39,088 bases of DNA from Chromatiales bacterium (lineage in GTDB: Bacteria > Pseudomonadota > Gammaproteobacteria > Thiohalomonadales > Thiohalomonadaceae): positions 1 through 39,088 of the forward strand of contig QKFD01000015.1 of NCBI GenBank assembly GCA_003251535.1, read 5' to 3'. A program made the position numbers and the translations under genes. The notes below the pieces were generated by a model that saw only the letters and a program-made list of their open reading frames with translations, had not been told where the DNA came from and did not search any database. Shown here piece after piece: positions 25,076 through 33,691 of this stretch (positions are counted from its first letter, which is position 1; the number at the start of each line of letters is the position of its first letter).

Positions 25076-25783
25076 ATGAAATCGATGCATCAACGCGGGG
25101 GCACGTGGGCTGTTCTTTTCATCGCCGCGGCTATTGGCGGTGCGAGCATGACGGCATACGCCAACGAACAGGAGCGCCAGGAGATCCTGGGGCGCATTCA
25201 GCAGGTGGTCACCAAACCGGAGGCCTACAAGGCAGCCATTGTTGCCGGAAAAGAGCGCTCCGTACTCTGTGGTTATTGCCATGGTGTCGATGGCAACAGC
25301 ACCAAACCCGATATCCCCAATCTGGCCGGTCAGAACCCTGCCTATCTACTCCAGCAGGTGGAGAAGTTCGCCGATGGCCGCCGCATCAACTTCGTGATGC
25401 AGAATCTGGCCAAGGAGTTCACCATGGAGGATAAGGTCAATCTGTCGCTCTACTACGCCAGCCAGAAGGTACGGCAGGAGGAGGCCGATGCGGAACTGGC
25501 GGCCAAGGGGCGAGAGCTCTTCTCCCACACCTGCCAGCGCTGCCACGGTATCGATGGGCATGGTGAAGAGGGGTATGCCCGCATTGCCGGCCAACGCCAG
25601 CAGTATGTGCAGACCACTTTAAAGCGGTTCCGCGAGAATGCCCGCAACAAGAAGGCCAATCTCTCAGTGGATGAGGTGAAGCGCTCCAACGAGTCGATGG
25701 AGATGTACACCCAGTTCTTGAGCGATGACGACATCGAGGCCCTTGCTGCCCACATCGCTACCCTGCGTCCCGCCTCTCTCTAG
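25076..25783 (+). CDS. Diheme cytochrome c4 family protein
   Basis: 235 residues. A signal peptide (basic start, hydrophobic 11-27, cleavage probably after the Ala of TAYA) exports it to the periplasm. There are two heme c sites, CGYCH (65-69) and CQRCH (153-157). Met108 in FVMQN and Met208 or Met210 near the C-terminus are likely axial ligands. Cytochrome c4 carries electrons from the bc1 complex to terminal oxidases. It begins 22 bases after chpC; a functional link with chemosensing is not shown and it may simply share the transcript. An alternative ATG at 25085 is possible. It converges on rsmE with only 9 bases between stops. Confidence 0.88.
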   Translation: MKSMHQRGGTWAVLFIAAAIGGASMTAYANEQERQEILGRIQQVVTKPEAYKAAIVAGKERSVLCGYCHGVDGNSTKPDIPNLAGQNPAYLLQQVEKFADGRRINFVMQNLAKEFTMEDKVNLSLYYASQKVRQEEADAELAAKGRELFSHTCQRCHGIDGHGEEGYARIAGQRQQYVQTTLKRFRENARNKKANLSVDEVKRSNESMEMYTQFLSDDDIEALAAHIATLRPASL

Positions 25784-25792
25784 CAACATCCC

Positions 25793-26527
25793 TCAAACCG
25801 CACCCAGATCGCCCCAAAGGGTCTGGAGTGCGGCAAGGGCGGTGACCGCCGCCGTCTCTGTCCGCAGGATCCGCGGTCCAAGCCGCACCCCTTGGTAACC
25901 CGCCTGTAGCGCGGCCTCCAGCTCCTCCGGCGCCCAGCCCCCTTCCGGTCCAATGAGCAGCACTACCTGATCGCTCCGTGGTAGTTGGGGGAGGCCGTTA
26001 TGGGCCCGGGGATCTAGGATCAGACCCAGGCCACTGGGTGGCTGCGCCAACCACTGTGCTGGGGGCTGTGGTGGATCGATAGAGGGGAGCCGGCTGCGGC
26101 CACACTGCTCACAGGCGGCGATGATGACCCCCTGCCAGTGGCGCAAGCGGGTCTCTGCTCGGGCGGCGTCCAGCTGTACCACGGACCGCTCAGCCGCCAG
26201 CGGCACAATGTGGTTGACCCCCAGCTCCACCGCCTTTTGCAGGGTATAGTCCATCCGTTCACCGCGGGAGATCCCCTGCGCCAGGGTGAGCTGTAGTGGT
26301 GACTCCGGTGTGGCGACCAACGCCTCCTCCACTGTCGCGCTGGCCCCCTGTTTATGGCAACGCAACAGTTGTGCAGAGAACTCACGGCCGGAGCCGTCAA
26401 ACAGTCGCAAGGTTGCCCCGGGGCGCAAGCGCAGGACCCGGGTAATGTGATTGGCCACCTCACTCCCCAGCTCCACTTCGGTGCCGGGGGTGAGGGGCGT
26501 AGCGACATAGAGGCGCGGGACCCGCAC
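25793..26527 (-). CDS. rsmE: 16S rRNA (uracil-1498-N3)-methyltransferase
   Basis: 244 residues. It methylates U1498 of 16S rRNA using S-adenosylmethionine. An N-terminal PUA-like RNA-binding domain (about 1-70) is followed by a SPOUT knot domain with LLIGPEGGWAPEELE and RILRTETAAVTALAAL, both family signatures. The start is GTG at 26527, directly next to the TGA of metF (TGAGTG), so the two are translationally coupled. Its SAM dependence fits its place after the SAM-cycle genes. Confidence 0.93.
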   Translation of the reverse strand: MRVPRLYVATPLTPGTEVELGSEVANHITRVLRLRPGATLRLFDGSGREFSAQLLRCHKQGASATVEEALVATPESPLQLTLAQGISRGERMDYTLQKAVELGVNHIVPLAAERSVVQLDAARAETRLRHWQGVIIAACEQCGRSRLPSIDPPQPPAQWLAQPPSGLGLILDPRAHNGLPQLPRSDQVVLLIGPEGGWAPEELEAALQAGYQGVRLGPRILRTETAAVTALAALQTLWGDLGAV

Positions 26528-27379
26528 TCAGCCCCCGATCCCAAGGGCATCGCAGAGGGCGAGGGTGGGGCCTGCTTGGTTCATGGTGTAGAAGTGGAGG
26601 CCTGGTGCGCCGGCCTCCAGCAGTCGCCGACAGAGATCGGTGACCACCTCTAGGCCATAGGCCCGAATCGACTCCAGATCGTCCCCATAGGACTCCAGCC
26701 GCAGGCGCAGCCAACGGGGGATCTCCGCCCCGCAGGCGTCAGAGAAGCGGGCCAGCTGGGCGAAATTGGTGATAGGCATGATGCCTGGGATGACGGGGAG
26801 ATCGAGCTGCATCCGCTCACAGTCGTCGATGAAGCGGAAGTAGGCGTCGGCGTTATAGAAGTACTGGGTGATGGCCGCATTGGCGCCAGCCACGACCTTA
26901 CGGCGAAAGTGCTCCAGATCGGCCGCTGCCGAACGGGCTTGGGGGTGAAACTCCGGGTAGGCGGCCACCTCGATCTGAAAGTGGTCGCCGGTGTACTCCC
27001 GGATAAAGGCCACCAGCTCATTGGCGTAGTGGAGATCGCCGGCATCTCGCATCCCGGAGGGCATGTCGCCGCGAAGGGCGACGATACGCCGGACACCAAT
27101 GGCGCGATAGCCCTCCAGCAGCTCCCCAATCTGCTCTCGGCTGGCGCCGATACAGGAGAGGTGGGGGGCGGCGTCATAGCCCGCCTTGAGGAGCCCATGG
27201 ATGGTTTCGTAGGTCCCCTGCTGGGTGCTACCACCGGCACCGTAGGTGACGGAGAAGTAGGCCGGTTGAATGCGCGCCAAGGCGTCGCGGGTCGCATTGA
27301 GTTTCTCCTTGCCCTGGTCGGTTTTGGGGGGGAAAAACTCGCAGCTGAAGGTGGGTGTGAACCGTTTCTGACTCTGCAT
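26528..27379 (-). CDS. metF: Methylenetetrahydrofolate reductase
   Basis: 283 residues from the ATG at 27379, preceded by GAGGGG. An in-frame ATG at 27514 is rejected because the added residues overlap the leader hairpin and are not conserved. It reduces 5,10-methylene-THF to 5-methyl-THF for methionine synthesis, using FAD. The FTPTFSCEFFPPKT start, the YGAGGSTQQGTYE loop and the ALRGDMPSG motif are typical of MetF. It lies 223 bases after ahcY, with strong hairpins in the gap, and is coupled to rsmE. It supplies methyl groups for the adjacent SAM cycle. Confidence 0.95.
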   Translation of the reverse strand: MQSQKRFTPTFSCEFFPPKTDQGKEKLNATRDALARIQPAYFSVTYGAGGSTQQGTYETIHGLLKAGYDAAPHLSCIGASREQIGELLEGYRAIGVRRIVALRGDMPSGMRDAGDLHYANELVAFIREYTGDHFQIEVAAYPEFHPQARSAAADLEHFRRKVVAGANAAITQYFYNADAYFRFIDDCERMQLDLPVIPGIMPITNFAQLARFSDACGAEIPRWLRLRLESYGDDLESIRAYGLEVVTDLCRRLLEAGAPGLHFYTMNQAGPTLALCDALGIGG

Positions 27380-27453
27380 CGGAAACCCCTCGGCATCTCG
27401 CCACGGCAGCAGGGAGTGCCGCCGTGGGCGGGTATCAAGAGCTGTACTAAAGA

Positions 27454-27480
27454 GGGAGATCGGCACTGGGCCGATCTCCC
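27454..27480 (-). terminator. Intrinsic terminator/attenuator-like hairpin between ahcY and metF
   Basis: Arms 27454-27464 and 27470-27480 are exact 11-base complements around a 5-base loop. On the minus strand the stem is followed by TCTTTAG, a short T-rich run. It could terminate the ahcY message or attenuate metF transcription 75 bases before the metF ATG. Confidence 0.65.
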
Positions 27481-27500
27481 CAGGATGGGCGGGTCGTCGC

Positions 27501-27533
27501 CTCATCACGGTCAAAGAGGCTGAGCGTGATGAG
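27501..27533 (-). repeat. Second hairpin in the metF leader
   Basis: CTCATCACG (27501-27509) and CGTGATGAG (27525-27533) are exact complements around 15 bases. It lies upstream of the terminator-like stem in the minus-strand transcript. A third, weaker GGCGGC/GCCGCC stem lies further upstream, near 27550-27572. Together they make the metF leader highly structured. Confidence 0.55.
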
Positions 27534-27602
27534 CGGGTCAGGAGACGGCGGCGCCTTTATGGCCGCCACTGCGCCTCGGCCGTTTAGCCCAGCCCCTCTC
27601 TC

Positions 27603-29009
27603 TTAGTAGCGGTAGTGGTCCGGTTTGTAGGGACCATTCATCGGCACGCCGATGTAGTCCGCCTGCTCTTGGCTCATGCAGGTCAGATGGGCGCCGATCT
27701 TACCGAGGTGCAGCCGGGCCACCTTCTCATCCAGCTGCTTGGGCAGGATGTACACCTTGCGCTCATACGCCTGATGCTGGGTGAATAGCTCAAGTTGGGC
27801 GATCACCTGGTTGGTAAAGGAGGCCGACATAACGAAGCTGGGGTGGCCCGTGGCGCAACCCAGGTTCACCAGACGCCCCTTGGCCAGCACGATGATGCGC
27901 TTGCCATCGGGGAAGATCACATGATCCACCTGCGGCTTGATCTCCTCCCACTGGTACTTCTCTATGGCGGCGATGTCGATCTCTGAGTCGAAGTGGCCGA
28001 TGTTGCAGACGATCGCCTCATCCTTCATGGCCACCATGTGGTCGTGATGGATAACCGCCACGTTGCCAGTGGCGGTGACGAAGATATCGCCCAGGGGAGC
28101 GGCCTCCTCCATGGTGACCACTCGATACCCCTCCATGGCCGCCTGGAGGGCACAGATGGGATCGATCTCGGTGATCCAGACCGTTGCCCCCATCCCGCGG
28201 AAGGCCTGGGCGCACCCCTTGCCCACGTCACCATAACCGCATACCACGGCGATCTTGCCGGCTATCATCACGTCAGTGGCCCGCTTGATGCCATCCAGCA
28301 GGGACTCGCGGCAGCCGTAGAGGTTGTCAAACTTGCTCTTGGTCACTGAGTCATTAACGTTCATCGCCGGGAAGAGCAGCTCGCCCCGCTTCTGCATCTC
28401 GTAGAGGCGGTGGACGCCGGTGGTGGTCTCCTCGGTGACCCCGCGGATCCCCTGGCCGATGGTGGTCCACTTCTTACCATCCTGGGTCAGGGTGCGGCGC
28501 AGCAGGTCGAGGAACACCCTCCACTCATGGCTGGCGTTGGGCTCGGTGGCCGGTACCGCTCCGGCCTGCTCAAACTCGGTCCCCTTGTGCACCAACAGGG
28601 TGGCGTCACCGCCGTCATCCAGGATCATGTTGGGACCCGCGCCACCCGGCCAGGTGAGGGCCTGCTCGGTGCACCACCAATACTCCTCCAGCGTCTCGCC
28701 CTTCCAGGCAAACACCGGGATACCGGCGGCGGCAATGGCGGCGGCGGCGTGATCCTGGGTGGAGTAGATGTTGCACGAGGCCCAGCGCACCTCGGCACCG
28801 AGGGCCACCAGGGTCTCGATGAGTACGGCGGTCTGGATGGTCATGTGCAGTGAGCCGGAGATGCGGGCACCGGCCAGGGGCTTCTGGCTGCCGTACTCGT
28901 CGCGCAGCGCCATCAGACCCGGCATCTCCTTCTCGGCGATGCTGATCTCTTTGCGGCCCCAGTCGGCGAGGGCTAGATCGGCCACTTTGAAATCGGTAAA
29001 GGCGTTCAT
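27603..29009 (-). CDS. ahcY: Adenosylhomocysteinase
   Basis: 468 residues, typical of proteobacterial AhcY. It hydrolyses S-adenosylhomocysteine to adenosine and homocysteine with a tightly bound NAD+, clearing the inhibitory product of methyl transfer. The N-terminal [19 protein letters not shown] motif, the Rossmann GYGDVGKG, and the C-terminal YKPDHYRY are all present. The ribosome site AAAGGAGAG lies 5-10 bases before the ATG. Expression is controlled by the SAH riboswitch immediately upstream. It sits between metK and metF in the same direction. Confidence 0.97.
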
Positions 29010-29036
29010 GGATCTCTCCTTTATTAGGTTGAGAAT

Positions 29037-29111
29037 GAGCGCCGTTACTGCGTTGAGCTGCCCCCCTGAGCCTGACGGATCTAAAGCCCGCTGCAGCGCT
29101 CCTCAGGGGGG
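29037..29111 (-). ncRNA. SAH riboswitch upstream of ahcY
   Basis: On the minus strand, P1 is a perfect 10-base stem: 29111-29102 (CCCCCCTGAG) pairs with 29070-29061 (CTCAGGGGGG). Between the arms lie the conserved GAGGAGCGCTGC segment and TCAGGCTC (29075-29068). A pseudoknot is formed by GAGCGC (29101-29096) pairing with GCGCTC (29042-29037). These features match the known SAH riboswitch class, which binds S-adenosylhomocysteine and turns on ahcY. The pseudoknot ends 17 bases before the AAAGGAGAG ribosome site, so control may act on translation, but this is inferred. No expression platform terminator was seen. Confidence 0.93.
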
Positions 29112-29199
29112 TGGCCATTAAAAAATCGGGGGTTTTGCTGCGCCCGCTAATGGGTTGTCCGCGAGTCGCGGCAAGTCATAGAAGGTGTGCCACCGTGCC

Positions 29200-29237
29200 C
29201 TCTCGGTCCCCGCACCGGGCGGTGTGAGGGCCGAGAG
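29200..29237 (-). terminator. Hairpin downstream of metK
   Basis: CTCTCGG (29200-29206) pairs with CCGAGAG (29231-29237), and an inner stem pairs 29211-29217 with 29220-29226. It lies 10 bases after the metK stop. No T run follows on the minus strand, so it is a possible terminator or processing element between metK and the riboswitch. Confidence 0.45.
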
Positions 29238-29247
29238 ATATTCAGGC

Positions 29248-30408
29248 TCAAAGACCCGCGGCCTCGCGCAGCGCCTCGGCCTTGTCGGTCCGCTCCCAGC
29301 TGAAGCTCTCCTCCTCGCGGCCGAAGTGGCCGTAGGCGGCAGTGGCCTGGTAGATGGGGCGCAGCAGATCGAGCATGTGGATGATGCCGCGGGGGCGCAG
29401 ATCAAAGTGCTCCCGCACCAGCTCCACCAGCCGCTCCTCTTCCACCTTGCCCGTGCCAAAGGTCTCGACACTGATGGAGGTGGGTTCAGCCACCCCGATG
29501 GCGTAAGAGACCTGCACCTCGCACCGCTCCGCCAGACCGGCGGCGACGATATTCTTTGCCACGTAGCGCCCGGCATAGGCGGCCGAGCGGTCCACCTTGG
29601 AGGGATCTTTGCCAGAGAAGGCGCCACCACCGTGCCGGGCCATGCCGCCATAGCTGTCTACGATGATCTTGCGGCCAGTTAGACCACAGTCCCCCATCGG
29701 GCCACCGATGACGAAGCGACCGGTGGGGTTGATGTAGAAGCGGGTATTTTGATCGACCCACTCCCGCGGTAGCACCGGCAGCAAGATCTCATCCATGACT
29801 GCATCGTGTACCACCTTCTCCGATACATCCGGGGCGTGCTGGGTGGAGAGCACGACGGCGTCAATGCCTACCGGCCGGCCATTCTCATAGCGGAGAGTGA
29901 CCTGGCTCTTGGCGTCGGGCCGCAGCCACGGCAGGGTGCCGTTCTTGCGTACCTCGGCCTGCCGTTTGACCAGGCGGTGGGAGAAGGTGATGGCGGCCGG
30001 CATGAGGACATCGGTCTCATTGGTGGCGTAACCGAACATCAAGCCCTGGTCGCCCGCCCCCTGCTCCAGCTCCGTGGTGCGATCCACGCCCTGGGCAATA
30101 TCCACCGACTGTTTGCCGATGGCGTTCAGGACGGCACACGACTCCCAATCGAAGCCCATGTCTGAGCTGTTGTAGCCGATCTCTTTAATCACCTCGCGGG
30201 CGGTGTGCTCGTAGTCCACCACTGCGGAGGTGGTGATCTCGCCGGCTACCAGCACCATGCCGGTCTTGACCAAGGTCTCGCAGGCGACGCGGGCGCGGGG
30301 ATCCTGGGCCAGGATGGCGTCGAGGATCGCGTCGGAGATCTGATCGGCGATCTTGTCCGGATGGCCTTCAGAGACCGACTCGGAGGTGAAGAGGTGTTTG
30401 CTGCTCAT
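29248..30408 (-). CDS. metK: S-adenosylmethionine synthetase
   Basis: 386 residues. It makes SAM from methionine and ATP. The N-terminal [20 protein letters not shown] motif, the [15 protein letters not shown]-binding signature and the [16 protein letters not shown] loop are all intact. The ATG at 30408 follows AGAGGGAACC. It is first in the minus-strand series metK, ahcY, metF, rsmE, which forms the SAM-SAH-methionine cycle. A 265-base gap separates it from the PhnD-like gene. No SAM riboswitch was recognised in its leader. Confidence 0.97.
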
Positions 30409-30467
30409 AGGTTCCCTCTAGTTAGGACGAAGCCGAAGGGCAGCCCCCGCGGCGAAAAAGAGGCGCG

Positions 30468-30476
30468 ATTCTATCA
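30468..30476 (-). promoter_or_regulatory. Candidate extended -10 promoter for metK
   Basis: On the minus strand the sequence TGATAGAAT (30476-30468) is an extended -10 form (TG-N-TAGAAT). The start would lie near 30461, leaving about 53 bases of leader. No convincing -35 hexamer was found at 17 bases. The rest of 30409-30673 shows no gene. Confidence 0.35.
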
Positions 30477-30673
30477 ACAATTGCATGACAAACGGGGTCA
30501 TCTCTACCGGTCGCACCTGCTGGAGTGGCGGGGCCGATCCGGCGGGATGCCGCGTAGCCCACCCCATAGTAGTGTCCACGTTAGGCAGTGCCCATTTTTT
30601 TCTGGGGATATATCCATCGCGTGGCTTGGGGCGTGGCGGCTGGGGGATTACCCGAGCTGTGCGTGGGAGTGGC

Positions 30674-31498
30674 TCAATAGTCCCACAGCTCCTTCAACAT
30701 GGGGGCAAGGCCTTGATAATCATCGGCGGAGGCGCTCTCAAACCCCTCAATACTGAGGGCGGCCAGGGCCTGCCGTCCGGCCTCCGAGGTCCCCGCCTCC
30801 AGCAGCGCCTTGCGCACCGCGGCACGGGTCTCCTCCGGGAGCGAGGGGGCTGCCACTATGCCCGGCGCCGTGACCTGCTCAGTGGTGAAGACCGGGACAA
30901 GATCGGGGTAGCGGCCGAGCAGCGGCGTGGGGATCATCGCCCCGGCGGCCTGTTTGGCAAGGAGTTTGTTGGCCGCCGAGTCGGCATCCTCCGCCTCCAC
31001 GATGTAGGGCTGACGCACCGTGTTGGGGTAGATCTGGCTGAGGGCCAGGGCGCCGATGGCGGGGGAGGGGGTGGTGGCGATGGTCTTGCCTATCAATTCG
31101 GCAGGGTCGAGTATCAGATTGTCGTTACTGCACACCAGGGTGTAGCTCACCTTGCCAGGAAACTTGGCCAGTACCGACCAGCCCAGTTTGTGGATCCGGT
31201 AGTCGATAAAGTGGGGGCCTTCGATCACCAAGTCGTAGCTCCCCCGTTTGAGCATCTGCCAGTGGGTCAGGAAGTTGCGGTGGGTGACTAGGGTGATCGG
31301 CTGCCCAATGGCACTACTCAGGTAGCTGGCCAGGGGTTGGTAGTTGGTACGGGTCAGGTCTGCCGGCAGCACCGGATGGACCGCCAAGGTGAGGGGCTCA
31401 CTTGCGTGGGCGTGGGCGCTGGGCAGCAGCGCCATGGTCCACGCCATTAGGCCGATCCGGAGGGATCGGAACAGGGTCACCATGCCTCGTCTCCTCAC
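30674..31498 (-). CDS. PhnD-like periplasmic substrate-binding protein
   Basis: 274 residues, or 269 if it starts at the second ATG (31483). A signal peptide with a hydrophobic core at about 14-26 ends near the Ala of HAHAS. The mature part resembles the PhnD/SsuA/transferrin-like fold of phosphate-phosphonate ABC transporter binding proteins: an early YQPLASYLS segment, YDLVIEGPHFIDYR and the GKTIATTPSPAIGALA motif. No permease or ATPase gene is near, so it is an orphan; such proteins often feed sensory rather than transport systems. The ligand cannot be named. It lies 123 bases downstream of the FimX-like gene in the same direction, separated by a structured region. Confidence 0.75.
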   Translation of the reverse strand: MRRRGMVTLFRSLRIGLMAWTMALLPSAHAHASEPLTLAVHPVLPADLTRTNYQPLASYLSSAIGQPITLVTHRNFLTHWQMLKRGSYDLVIEGPHFIDYRIHKLGWSVLAKFPGKVSYTLVCSNDNLILDPAELIGKTIATTPSPAIGALALSQIYPNTVRQPYIVEAEDADSAANKLLAKQAAGAMIPTPLLGRYPDLVPVFTTEQVTAPGIVAAPSLPEETRAAVRKALLEAGTSEAGRQALAALSIEGFESASADDYQGLAPMLKELWDY

Positions 31499-31522
31499 CC
31501 CTCCATGGCCAGGGAGGGGTCT

Positions 31523-31601
31523 GTGATTGGATTAACTTGCCATCTGCTGTAAACCACAGACGGCCCCTAGAGGCCCGACTGTGGTTACAGAAGACAATCA
31601 C
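31523..31601. repeat. Nested inverted repeats between the FimX-like gene and the PhnD-like gene
   Basis: CTGTAAACCACAG (31547-31559) pairs with CTGTGGTTACAG (31579-31590) with one bulged A, enclosing a GGCC/GGCC pair. An outer stem pairs GTGATTG (31523-31529) with CAATCAC (31595-31601). It begins about 20 bases after the fimX stop and could be a terminator-like 3' structure, though no T run follows on the minus strand. Confidence 0.55.
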
Positions 31602-31621
31602 CACCGGGGGTGGTGCGAGGC

Positions 31622-33691
31622 TTAACCCTCGAAGGAGAAATCGTAATTCAGATTTGGACTAGGTTCATGCAGGAAGTAGCCCTGGGCATAGTCAACGCTA
31701 CTAGTCCAGAGGTAGGCGAGGGTGCCGGCGTTCTCCACGAACTGGGCAATGGTCTTGATATCCCGCTCCTGCGCTACCTGGCACACCTGTTTCAGCATCT
31801 CCTGGTGTTCGCGGCTATCCGCCAGATGGCGCACCACATCACCAGAGACCTTGAGGAAGTTGGGTTCGCAGTAGCGCAGTAGATCGGTCCAGTTGCCCTC
31901 CGGCACCAGGTGTTCCAGGGCTAGGCGTACCCCAAACTGCTTGAGGCCGCTGGAGAGGGCGCGCACCTCATTGAGGTGCTTGCGGGCCACCGGCTCCGCC
32001 AGCTCCAGGGTCAACACACCGCTCCCCAGGCTGGCGGCCCGGACCAGCTCACCCAACCAGGGCAAGAAGCCGGGGTCCGTCAGCGAGGCGTTGGAGAGCT
32101 TGACGAAGAGGCGGGTGTCCTGACCGGCGCGGCGCCGTTTGGCCAGCGCCTTGGCCGCGTTGGCGAGCACCCAGCGATCCACGCCCCGCATCAGGCCGGC
32201 ATTCTCCGCGGCCTGGAGGAACTCCATGGGGGGAAGCTGGTTCTGCTGGTTGTCCAGCATCCGCAGCAGCACTTCGTAGTTCTCGGAGCTGTCGCCCCGC
32301 AGGCTGATCACCGGCTGGTAGAGCAGGACAAAGCTGTTCTCCCGGAGGGCGAGTTTGATCTGCCGGGCCCAGATCGACATGCGCTCGGCATCGGTCATAT
32401 CGCTGGCAGCCGGGGCGTAGATCTGGCACGGCCGATTGCCTCGGCGCGCCTCCACCAAGGCCCGCTCGGCCCGCTGGATCAGCTCTCCCACCTCTTTAAC
32501 GGTGCCGTCAATGGCGGTGATGCCCGCCTGGAACTGGATGCTGATGCTGCGGGTGCCAATGGCAAAGATGTGGTCGCGCAGCCCTTTGACGAGCCCCTGC
32601 GCCACCTGCTCCATCTTGTCCTGTCCCAACTGTTGCAGGATCCAGGCAAAGGTGTGGTTGCCGAAGCGGGCCAGCATGGCCTCCTCTTTCAGCGTTGCCT
32701 TGAGCAGACGGGCCACTTCGATGATGAGGGAGTCGGCGGCGGCGATGCCGTGTTCTTCCTGGAGGCGGGCAAAGTCGGCCGGTTCTAGGAGGAAGATGGC
32801 CCCTTGGTAGCTCTCGTTGTGGTGCAGCTCCCGCTCCAAGTGGGTGAGGAAGAAGCCCCGGTTGTAGAGGCCGGTGGGTAGATCGAGGCGCGATAGCTCA
32901 TCCAGCTTCTTCTCCAACTCGGCGCTATCACTGCGATCGCGGATGATGATCTGGGTGCAGAGTTCATCCTCGAAGGTGGCCGGGGAGAACTCCATGTTGA
33001 TCTGGAAGGTGGTGGCATCGGCCTTGAGGCCGGACAACTCAAAGTTGCCACTCTGCGCCTTGCCTTTGACATGGGCGCGGAGGAACTCCTTCAGCTTGCC
33101 ATGATCCTCTGGGGCGATGAGGTCCATCACCGGCATGTCCAGCAGTTCGGTGCGGTCGGTCAGGCCGAACATGCTGAGGTAGGAGTCGTTGACGTAGAGG
33201 TGGATGCCTTCGTGGACATAGGCGATGGCATCGCGGGAGCTATCCACCAGGGCCCGTGCCCGATGTTCGGTCTGCTTCAGGCGGCGGCCACACTCGCGCA
33301 TCTGCCGGCGCTCCTGGAGGGTCTGGAACTCGCGCCAGATGGCGTGGACCAGACGGCGCTGTTGGCTCACCGGGATGGCGTCACGCGCCCCCGCCTCCAG
33401 TAGCTCATCGATCTCTTCACCAGGGTCGGTGGAGAGCATCAATACGAGTGGCACGTCCTGCTCAAACTGCGCCACGACCCGCAAGGCATCGAGGGCGCTA
33501 AAGGAGGCGACCGCGGGTTTAGCGAGGAGTAGGTCCCAGGTCTGGGCGGTGAGGGCAGTGCGGAGATCCTCCGCCTCAGCGATGTGCTCTGCCCGTACTG
33601 GGCGGCCGGTGTTGCGTAACAGGTTGGCGACAGACTCGGCATCGTTCGAGGAGTCGTCAAGGATGATCAATCTCAGGGCTTCGTCACTCAC
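31622..33691 (-). CDS. fimX: FimX-like degenerate REC-PAS-GGDEF-EAL c-di-GMP effector
   Basis: 689 residues (P. aeruginosa FimX is 691). Domains run receiver-like (1-125), PAS (about 145-260), GGDEF (about 275-425) and EAL (about 440-689). All enzymatic signatures are broken. The receiver phosphoacceptor region reads DLLLAKP with no Asp. GGDEF is GNHTF (344-348) and EAL is EVL (473-475). The metal-binding EAL motifs are altered: ELAEP, EHLVPEG, LKVSG and AQFVEN. FimX in Pseudomonas and Xanthomonas has the same pattern, binds c-di-GMP with its EAL domain and promotes pilus assembly and twitching. It starts at GTG 33691 after AAGGTG. Its nearness to pil and chp genes supports the call. Confidence 0.82.
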   Translation of the reverse strand: MSDEALRLIILDDSSNDAESVANLLRNTGRPVRAEHIAEAEDLRTALTAQTWDLLLAKPAVASFSALDALRVVAQFEQDVPLVLMLSTDPGEEIDELLEAGARDAIPVSQQRRLVHAIWREFQTLQERRQMRECGRRLKQTEHRARALVDSSRDAIAYVHEGIHLYVNDSYLSMFGLTDRTELLDMPVMDLIAPEDHGKLKEFLRAHVKGKAQSGNFELSGLKADATTFQINMEFSPATFEDELCTQIIIRDRSDSAELEKKLDELSRLDLPTGLYNRGFFLTHLERELHHNESYQGAIFLLEPADFARLQEEHGIAAADSLIIEVARLLKATLKEEAMLARFGNHTFAWILQQLGQDKMEQVAQGLVKGLRDHIFAIGTRSISIQFQAGITAIDGTVKEVGELIQRAERALVEARRGNRPCQIYAPAASDMTDAERMSIWARQIKLALRENSFVLLYQPVISLRGDSSENYEVLLRMLDNQQNQLPPMEFLQAAENAGLMRGVDRWVLANAAKALAKRRRAGQDTRLFVKLSNASLTDPGFLPWLGELVRAASLGSGVLTLELAEPVARKHLNEVRALSSGLKQFGVRLALEHLVPEGNWTDLLRYCEPNFLKVSGDVVRHLADSREHQEMLKQVCQVAQERDIKTIAQFVENAGTLAYLWTSSVDYAQGYFLHEPSPNLNYDFSFEG

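Follow-up and report, generated by a model that had tools for sequence, protein, structure and literature searches.

The minus strand of the window, by which we mean the whole stretch of 39,088 nucleotides that was analysed, carries metK, ahcY, metF, and rsmE in a row, and the question raised by this locus is whether the leader between metK and ahcY holds a riboswitch that senses SAH and, if it does, at what level and through which bases it would control ahcY. The gene names in the original prediction hold, each being above the curated cut-off of the matching NCBIfam model: metK, which codes for methionine adenosyltransferase and lies upstream of the riboswitch (29248-30408; TIGR01034, 635.8 bits, cut-off 309.4), ahcY, which codes for an adenosylhomocysteinase of 468 amino acids (27603-29009; TIGR00936, 645.6 bits, cut-off 497.6), metF, which codes for methylenetetrahydrofolate reductase (26528-27379, with the ATG at 27379 as the probable start; TIGR00676, 322.3 bits, cut-off 293.7), and rsmE, which codes for 16S rRNA (uracil1498-N3)-methyltransferase (25793-26527; NF008692, 312.2 bits, cut-off 196). 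The Shine-Dalgarno sequence of ahcY, AGGAGA, is at 29015-29020 on the same strand. The SAH riboswitch class has been described as upregulating ahcY and as binding SAH at about 32 nM, roughly 1000-fold more tightly than SAM (PMC7057144), and in Burkholderia cenocepacia RNA-seq of transcript starts has placed an SAH element in the 5'UTR of an adenosylhomocysteinase gene (PMC4603805).

The aptamer in the ahcY leader

The leader had been assigned to the known SAH riboswitch class from its letters, and the covariance-model search agrees. The Rfam model RF01057 matches the minus strand at 29110-29030 over its full length (model positions 1-78 of 78) with 65.5 bits against a cut-off of 37 and an E value of 5e-10. 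When the whole window was compared with 4227 Rfam families, RF01057 was the sole family at gathering score, so that neither a second riboswitch nor any other RNA family was found in the window at that score, and this ahcY leader element is also the one RF01057 match in the assembly. The match ends 20 bases before the ahcY start codon.

The helices are in the places expected for the class. P1 was predicted to be a perfect stem of 10 bases and it is, pairing 29111-29102 with 29070-29061; P2 is a stem-loop at 29075-29091, in which 29091-29087 pair with 29079-29075; and the six-base pseudoknot pairs GAGCGC at 29101-29096 with GCGCTC at 29042-29037. A script verified, letter by letter, nine pairs of P1, five of P2, and six of the pseudoknot, and the same nine P1 pairs were counted on the alignment described below, while the tenth P1 pair was read from the sequence. 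The conserved segments that had been pointed out are present on the minus strand as GAGGAGCGCTGC at 29104-29093 and TCAGGCTC at 29075-29068, and the Rfam consensus segments GAGGAGCGcUGCA, CAGGCUC, and AACGGCGCUCA are all matched. Thus the window element shares with RF01057 the whole-model match, P1, P2, the pseudoknot, the conserved core, and the place before ahcY, and it differs by nothing notable except for its single departure from the conserved letters, a U in place of the C that precedes AACGG. Between the pseudoknot and the Shine-Dalgarno sequence are 16-17 bases, and the figure of 17 given in the original prediction is correct when GGAG from 29019 is taken as the ribosome site. The interval first proposed, 29037-29111, is right for the aptamer and too short for the control region because the relevant leader extends a few codons past the ahcY start at 29009.

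Comparison with relatives supports the same fold. RF01057 is present in 30 of the 56 genomes searched, the genome of the window included, and 28 of these elements make up the alignment A1, from which two (L028 and L030) were excluded for long inserts in P2. Standard pairs fill 93.0% of the cells of A1 compared to a shuffle mean of 80.4%, and 13 of the 20 pairs show changes on both sides compared to a shuffle mean of 7.7; none of 500 shuffles was as high in either count. The covariation score is 0.440; the shuffles give 0.198, with none of the 500 reaching the observed value, and slid partners give no more than 0.171. By helix, P1 is paired in 90.5% of cells with both-side changes at 7 of 9 pairs, P2 in 89.3% with both-side changes at 4 of 5, and the pseudoknot in 100% with both-side changes at 2 of 6, one of its pairs being exchanged from C-G to U-A in two rows. 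The calculation on these aligned sequences shows that P1, P2, and the six-base pseudoknot are all supported by covariation. At the level of sequence and alignment it is confirmed that the minus-strand leader of ahcY holds an SAH riboswitch aptamer, and by its class the element would bind SAH.

Aptamer variants in general call for some care on the last point, because rare variants can switch ligand, as has been described for a variant SAM aptamer that senses spermidine (PMC10853860), and the U that stands where Rfam has C before AACGG could be read as the mark of a related aptamer whose ligand is SAM, or SAM and SAH equally, instead of SAH. We consider this very improbable. The same U occurs in some other ahcY-linked elements of A1, the cut-off was reached by RF01057 only and not by the SAM or SAM/SAH families, and the element precedes ahcY and has metK upstream of it. 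The SAM/SAH riboswitch, RF01727, is similarly small, has a pseudoknot, and belongs to SAM/SAH metabolism (PMC7367207), but it has no match at gathering score in the window and has been described before metK in Rhodobacterales (PMC2864571).

A candidate -10 element, TTTAAT, lies 6 bases before the aptamer (29117-29122, minus strand), and no recognisable -35 element for it was found in the window; it is therefore kept as a candidate and was not accepted as an established ahcY promoter. Across relatives, -10-like hexamers occur just before the aptamer in 29 of 86 leaders (L031, which is weak, and L032, which is a duplicate, not being counted) as against 9, 6, and 6 in shifted stretches, with a shuffle mean of 11.5 and a highest value of 20 in 200 shuffles. 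This enrichment suggests that the transcript starts near P1.

A predicted start-codon hairpin and the probable level of control

Folding the window leader without the pseudoknot gives a predicted OFF hairpin at 28996-29048 on the minus strand (-17.1 kcal/mol, z -4.46, 0 of 200 shuffles as stable), in which GUAA, GGCG, UCAU, and UCUC pair with UUAC, CGCC, AUGA, and GAGA. In it, bases of the pseudoknot 3' strand and of the linker after it are matched to a portion of the Shine-Dalgarno region, to the start codon, and to the opening codons of ahcY. The calculation shows also that the hairpin takes up all but one of the six bases in the pseudoknot 3' strand (29037-29042), and because of these shared bases the hairpin and the pseudoknot cannot both form in full. 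ViennaRNA has neither pseudoknot nor ligand in its model, and the pseudoknot was imposed by blocking its strands. Once P1, P2, and the pseudoknot were imposed in this manner, the modelled probability that the AUG is unpaired rose from 0.02 to 0.75, and that of the Shine-Dalgarno sequence was 0.20 in both states because a small local hairpin holds it. Coupling as strong as that observed was found in none of 500 sets of shuffled codons and in 14 of 500 sets of shuffled linkers. Since the imposed pseudoknot frees the AUG, which is the direction published for the class, we infer from the folding model that the ahcY riboswitch is a translational ON switch. Translational control had been proposed earlier from the spacing between the pseudoknot and the ribosome site; that part stands, with an alternative hairpin over the start codon and no terminator-like site listed on the minus strand of the leader by a simple consensus scan, but in the model it is the start codon and not the Shine-Dalgarno sequence that changes state.

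To see how general such hairpins are, 73 leaders were chosen from 88 as preceding ahcY with 19-40 bases between the pseudoknot and the start; five metK-linked leaders, nine with long linkers, and one duplicate were excluded, and L031 and L073 were retained despite weak matches (26.4 and 22.2 bits) to the covariance model R1, which was built from A1. The start regions of these 73 have a mean z of -2.21, with 43 below -2 and six above 0, and the lowest of all is that of the window at -5.39. The pseudoknot 3' strand pairs downstream by at least 3 bases in 68 of the 73. The control starts behave differently: 69 metK starts, from which the five metK-linked loci were omitted, have a mean z of 0.21 with none below -2, and 22 of the 23 ahcY loci without a riboswitch, mostly from other phyla, have a mean of 0.16 with two below -2. 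The metF starts (n = 29; mean -0.45, four below -2) are the least clean of the three controls. The stretches compared are not identical, the controls being fixed at -39 to +15 and the leaders being cut from 12 bases before the pseudoknot end to +15. With this in view, the folding model indicates that such hairpins mark riboswitch-linked ahcY starts and not control starts.

The pairing also follows the start sequence of each locus. When the pseudoknot strand and the next seven bases were paired with the start region of the locus, the energy was on average -10.23 kcal/mol for the leaders with their own starts and -8.50 kcal/mol with swapped starts, a difference reached in none of 10000 permutations that ignored relatedness. 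The whole-fold version gave -7.24 as against -5.65, the lowest of 20 permutations, again with relatedness ignored, being -6.28. Lineage-specific pairings can be seen by eye, such as CACTCA with ATGAGTGAG, GTTCAT with ATGAACG, and CTCC with the Shine-Dalgarno GGAG. The window leader's own start ranks 19 of 73 among relatives' starts by pairing energy and 15 of 73 by whole fold, and this modest rank is explained by ATGAACGC starts being common. On imposing the aptamer fold, AUG accessibility went up by more than 0.2 in only 27 of the 73 leaders and ribosome-site accessibility by more than 0.1 in 15.

Taken together, these results make it quite likely that the window element is an RF01057 SAH riboswitch through which the translation of ahcY is switched on. 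Without SAH, 29042-29037 and the surrounding bases would fold onto the ahcY start and first codons (29048-28996) and initiation would be blocked. As SAH builds up, it would stabilise the P1, P2, and pseudoknot fold, and the pseudoknot would claim 29042-29037; the hairpin would then lose its base, the start codon would open, AhcY would be made, and SAH would be removed. The calculations concern the RNA folds, and the binding of SAH, the direction of control, and the translational level are what we predict from them. A start-codon hairpin as expression platform may or may not already appear in the original report of SAH riboswitches. For the window, the platform predicted here makes precise predictions that can be tested at the level of single bases.

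Two other readings accept the aptamer and place control elsewhere. The hairpin could be incidental, with control by the ligand depending solely on how near the pseudoknot lies to the ribosome site, and this would agree with the 16-17 bases that separate the two, with the Shine-Dalgarno state that does not change in the model, and with the 30 of 73 leaders that fail to reach a z below -2. This we hold to be unlikely because none of the 73 leaders has a lower z than that of the window, because the 69 metK and 22 riboswitch-free ahcY starts, bar two, have no such hairpins, and because the pairing tracks the start sequence across relatives. A slightly smaller chance is given to transcriptional control, in which the hairpin of the SAH riboswitch would work together with a terminator, either intrinsic or Rho-dependent, that lies ahead of ahcY or within it. 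One point for this possibility is that termination by Rho has no simple signature in the sequence. Another is the metH SAH riboswitch of Dechloromonas aromatica, which has the same aptamer class, with its pseudoknot called P4, and which is a starting part in a section on the design of transcription-regulating switches (PMC5621056); that element precedes metH and stands among transcription-regulating designs, whereas a translational platform before ahcY is predicted for the window. Against a terminator, a simple consensus scan listed just one terminator-like site on the minus strand in 25500-31700, at 31615, which leaves the interval between metK and ahcY without any, and the OFF hairpin covers the start codon with no run of U after it.

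Gene order and SAH elements before metK

The arrangement in the window is an ordinary one. Considering only metK, ahcY, metF, and rsmE, the next gene after the element is ahcY in 29 of the 30 genomes that have an RF01057 element among the 56 searched. With R1, accepting matches at E up to 0.1, 57 of 80 ahcY loci from named contigs were matched (59 matches, L040 and L044 having two each); ahcY is the next gene in 54 of the 57, and 51 of those 54 have a metK match upstream. The order metK-[SAH]-ahcY is therefore prevalent in relatives, and the window element, as a further SAH riboswitch within a familiar arrangement, matters little by itself. What is added here is the start-codon hairpin as expression platform and a set of relatives in which the element is linked to metK.

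In three loci (L038, L049, and L052) the only SAH element seen precedes metK, and L040 has two elements, one before metK and one before ahcY; these five elements are all over the Rfam cut-off. L021 also has an SAH element before metK. Sampling the order to which L021 belongs gave a match in 43 of 59 genomes, 42 of them over the cut-off, and all 43 come from a single family, f3, which had 53 genomes in the sample (the matched ones being L021 and L111-L152); the six sampled genomes of the other family in that order had no SAH match. Each of the 43 has one match, and of the four genes metK is the next in every one. Behind metK comes ahcY in 39 of the 43, and in the other four (L113, L118, L125, and L128) the stretch examined had no ahcY match.

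The metK-linked elements differ from the window element in sequence. By eye, the pseudoknot GAGCGC/GCGCTC has become GAACGC/GCGTTC, or nearly so, in 23 of 30 aligned metK leaders (L021 and L111-L139). In the aptamers of family f3 the first GAG is mostly AAG, facing CTT, and AGGCT is mostly preceded by T instead of C; with these two altered core letters the core is not wholly unchanged, and SAH is a putative ligand for them. In these leaders too the pseudoknot 3' strand takes part in an alternative hairpin, here of about 11-13 pairs, and the mean z of 34 metK-linked leaders is -4.08, with all but L040 below -2. The Shine-Dalgarno region opens by more than 0.1 in nine of the 34 and closes in three. 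A relay of four segments (pseudoknot strand, first hairpin, second hairpin, and Shine-Dalgarno) was considered for the metK leaders and rejected; relay folds were seen in L111 and L115, and in L115 the Shine-Dalgarno region barely opens, from 0.20 to 0.24.

Leyn et al. (2014), who compared about 200 proteobacterial genomes, state that metK is not under the control of SAH riboswitches (PMC4239095). Judged by sequence, the metK placement in family f3 would depart from that statement, and no earlier published record of an SAH riboswitch before metK was found in the open-access literature, among the matches listed. We propose tentatively, with a confidence that falls a little short of even, that one principle is shared, in which the pseudoknot 3' strand closes the start and the aptamer has evolved in concert with the opening codons of ahcY, and that the class has moved from ahcY to metK in one sampled family and a few further genomes, with a hairpin of about 11-13 pairs competing for the same strand. 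If the move to metK is true, SAH would govern not only its own removal but also how much SAM is made, and the metK-linked elements raise the question of whether production of the methyl donor can be controlled by a by-product of methylation.

Downstream and neighbouring genes

According to Leyn et al., ahcY and metF form the core of SAH riboswitch regulons and rsmE (COG1385) is a taxon-specific member in Moraxellaceae (PMC4239095). The window is like the regulons described there in that ahcY comes first with metF behind it, there are usually one or two elements per genome, and metK is not downstream; it is unlike them in that rsmE follows metF in another lineage and lies beyond the gap between ahcY and metF. 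That gap, measured to the probable metF start, is 223 bases and holds three strong inverted repeats in succession (27501-27533, 27454-27480, and 27401-27427), and given these repeats, control of metF and rsmE by the riboswitch is no more than a possibility. The gap has no repeat copies elsewhere and is present in a single copy in the assembly. The repeat at 27454-27480, which has 11 pairs and is followed by TCTTT on the minus strand, could be a weak terminator or attenuator; it is absent from the list given by the consensus terminator scan.

Neither LuxS nor MetJ was found in the genome, which is 95.56% complete, E. coli, one of the controls, being positive, and this fits a removal of SAH that relies on AhcY. 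The listed metF reading frame probably begins about 45 codons too early (the 27380-27514 region) because the profile match begins at residue 56 of the longer frame and GAGGGG precedes the ATG at 27379. Upstream of metK on the same strand, 31622-33691 codes for a protein with PAS, GGDEF, and c-di-GMP phosphodiesterase (EAL) matches, and adjoining it, 30674-31498 codes for a periplasmic binding protein that is weakly PhnD-like (31 bits, far below the cut-off). These two are possibly a sensing pair.
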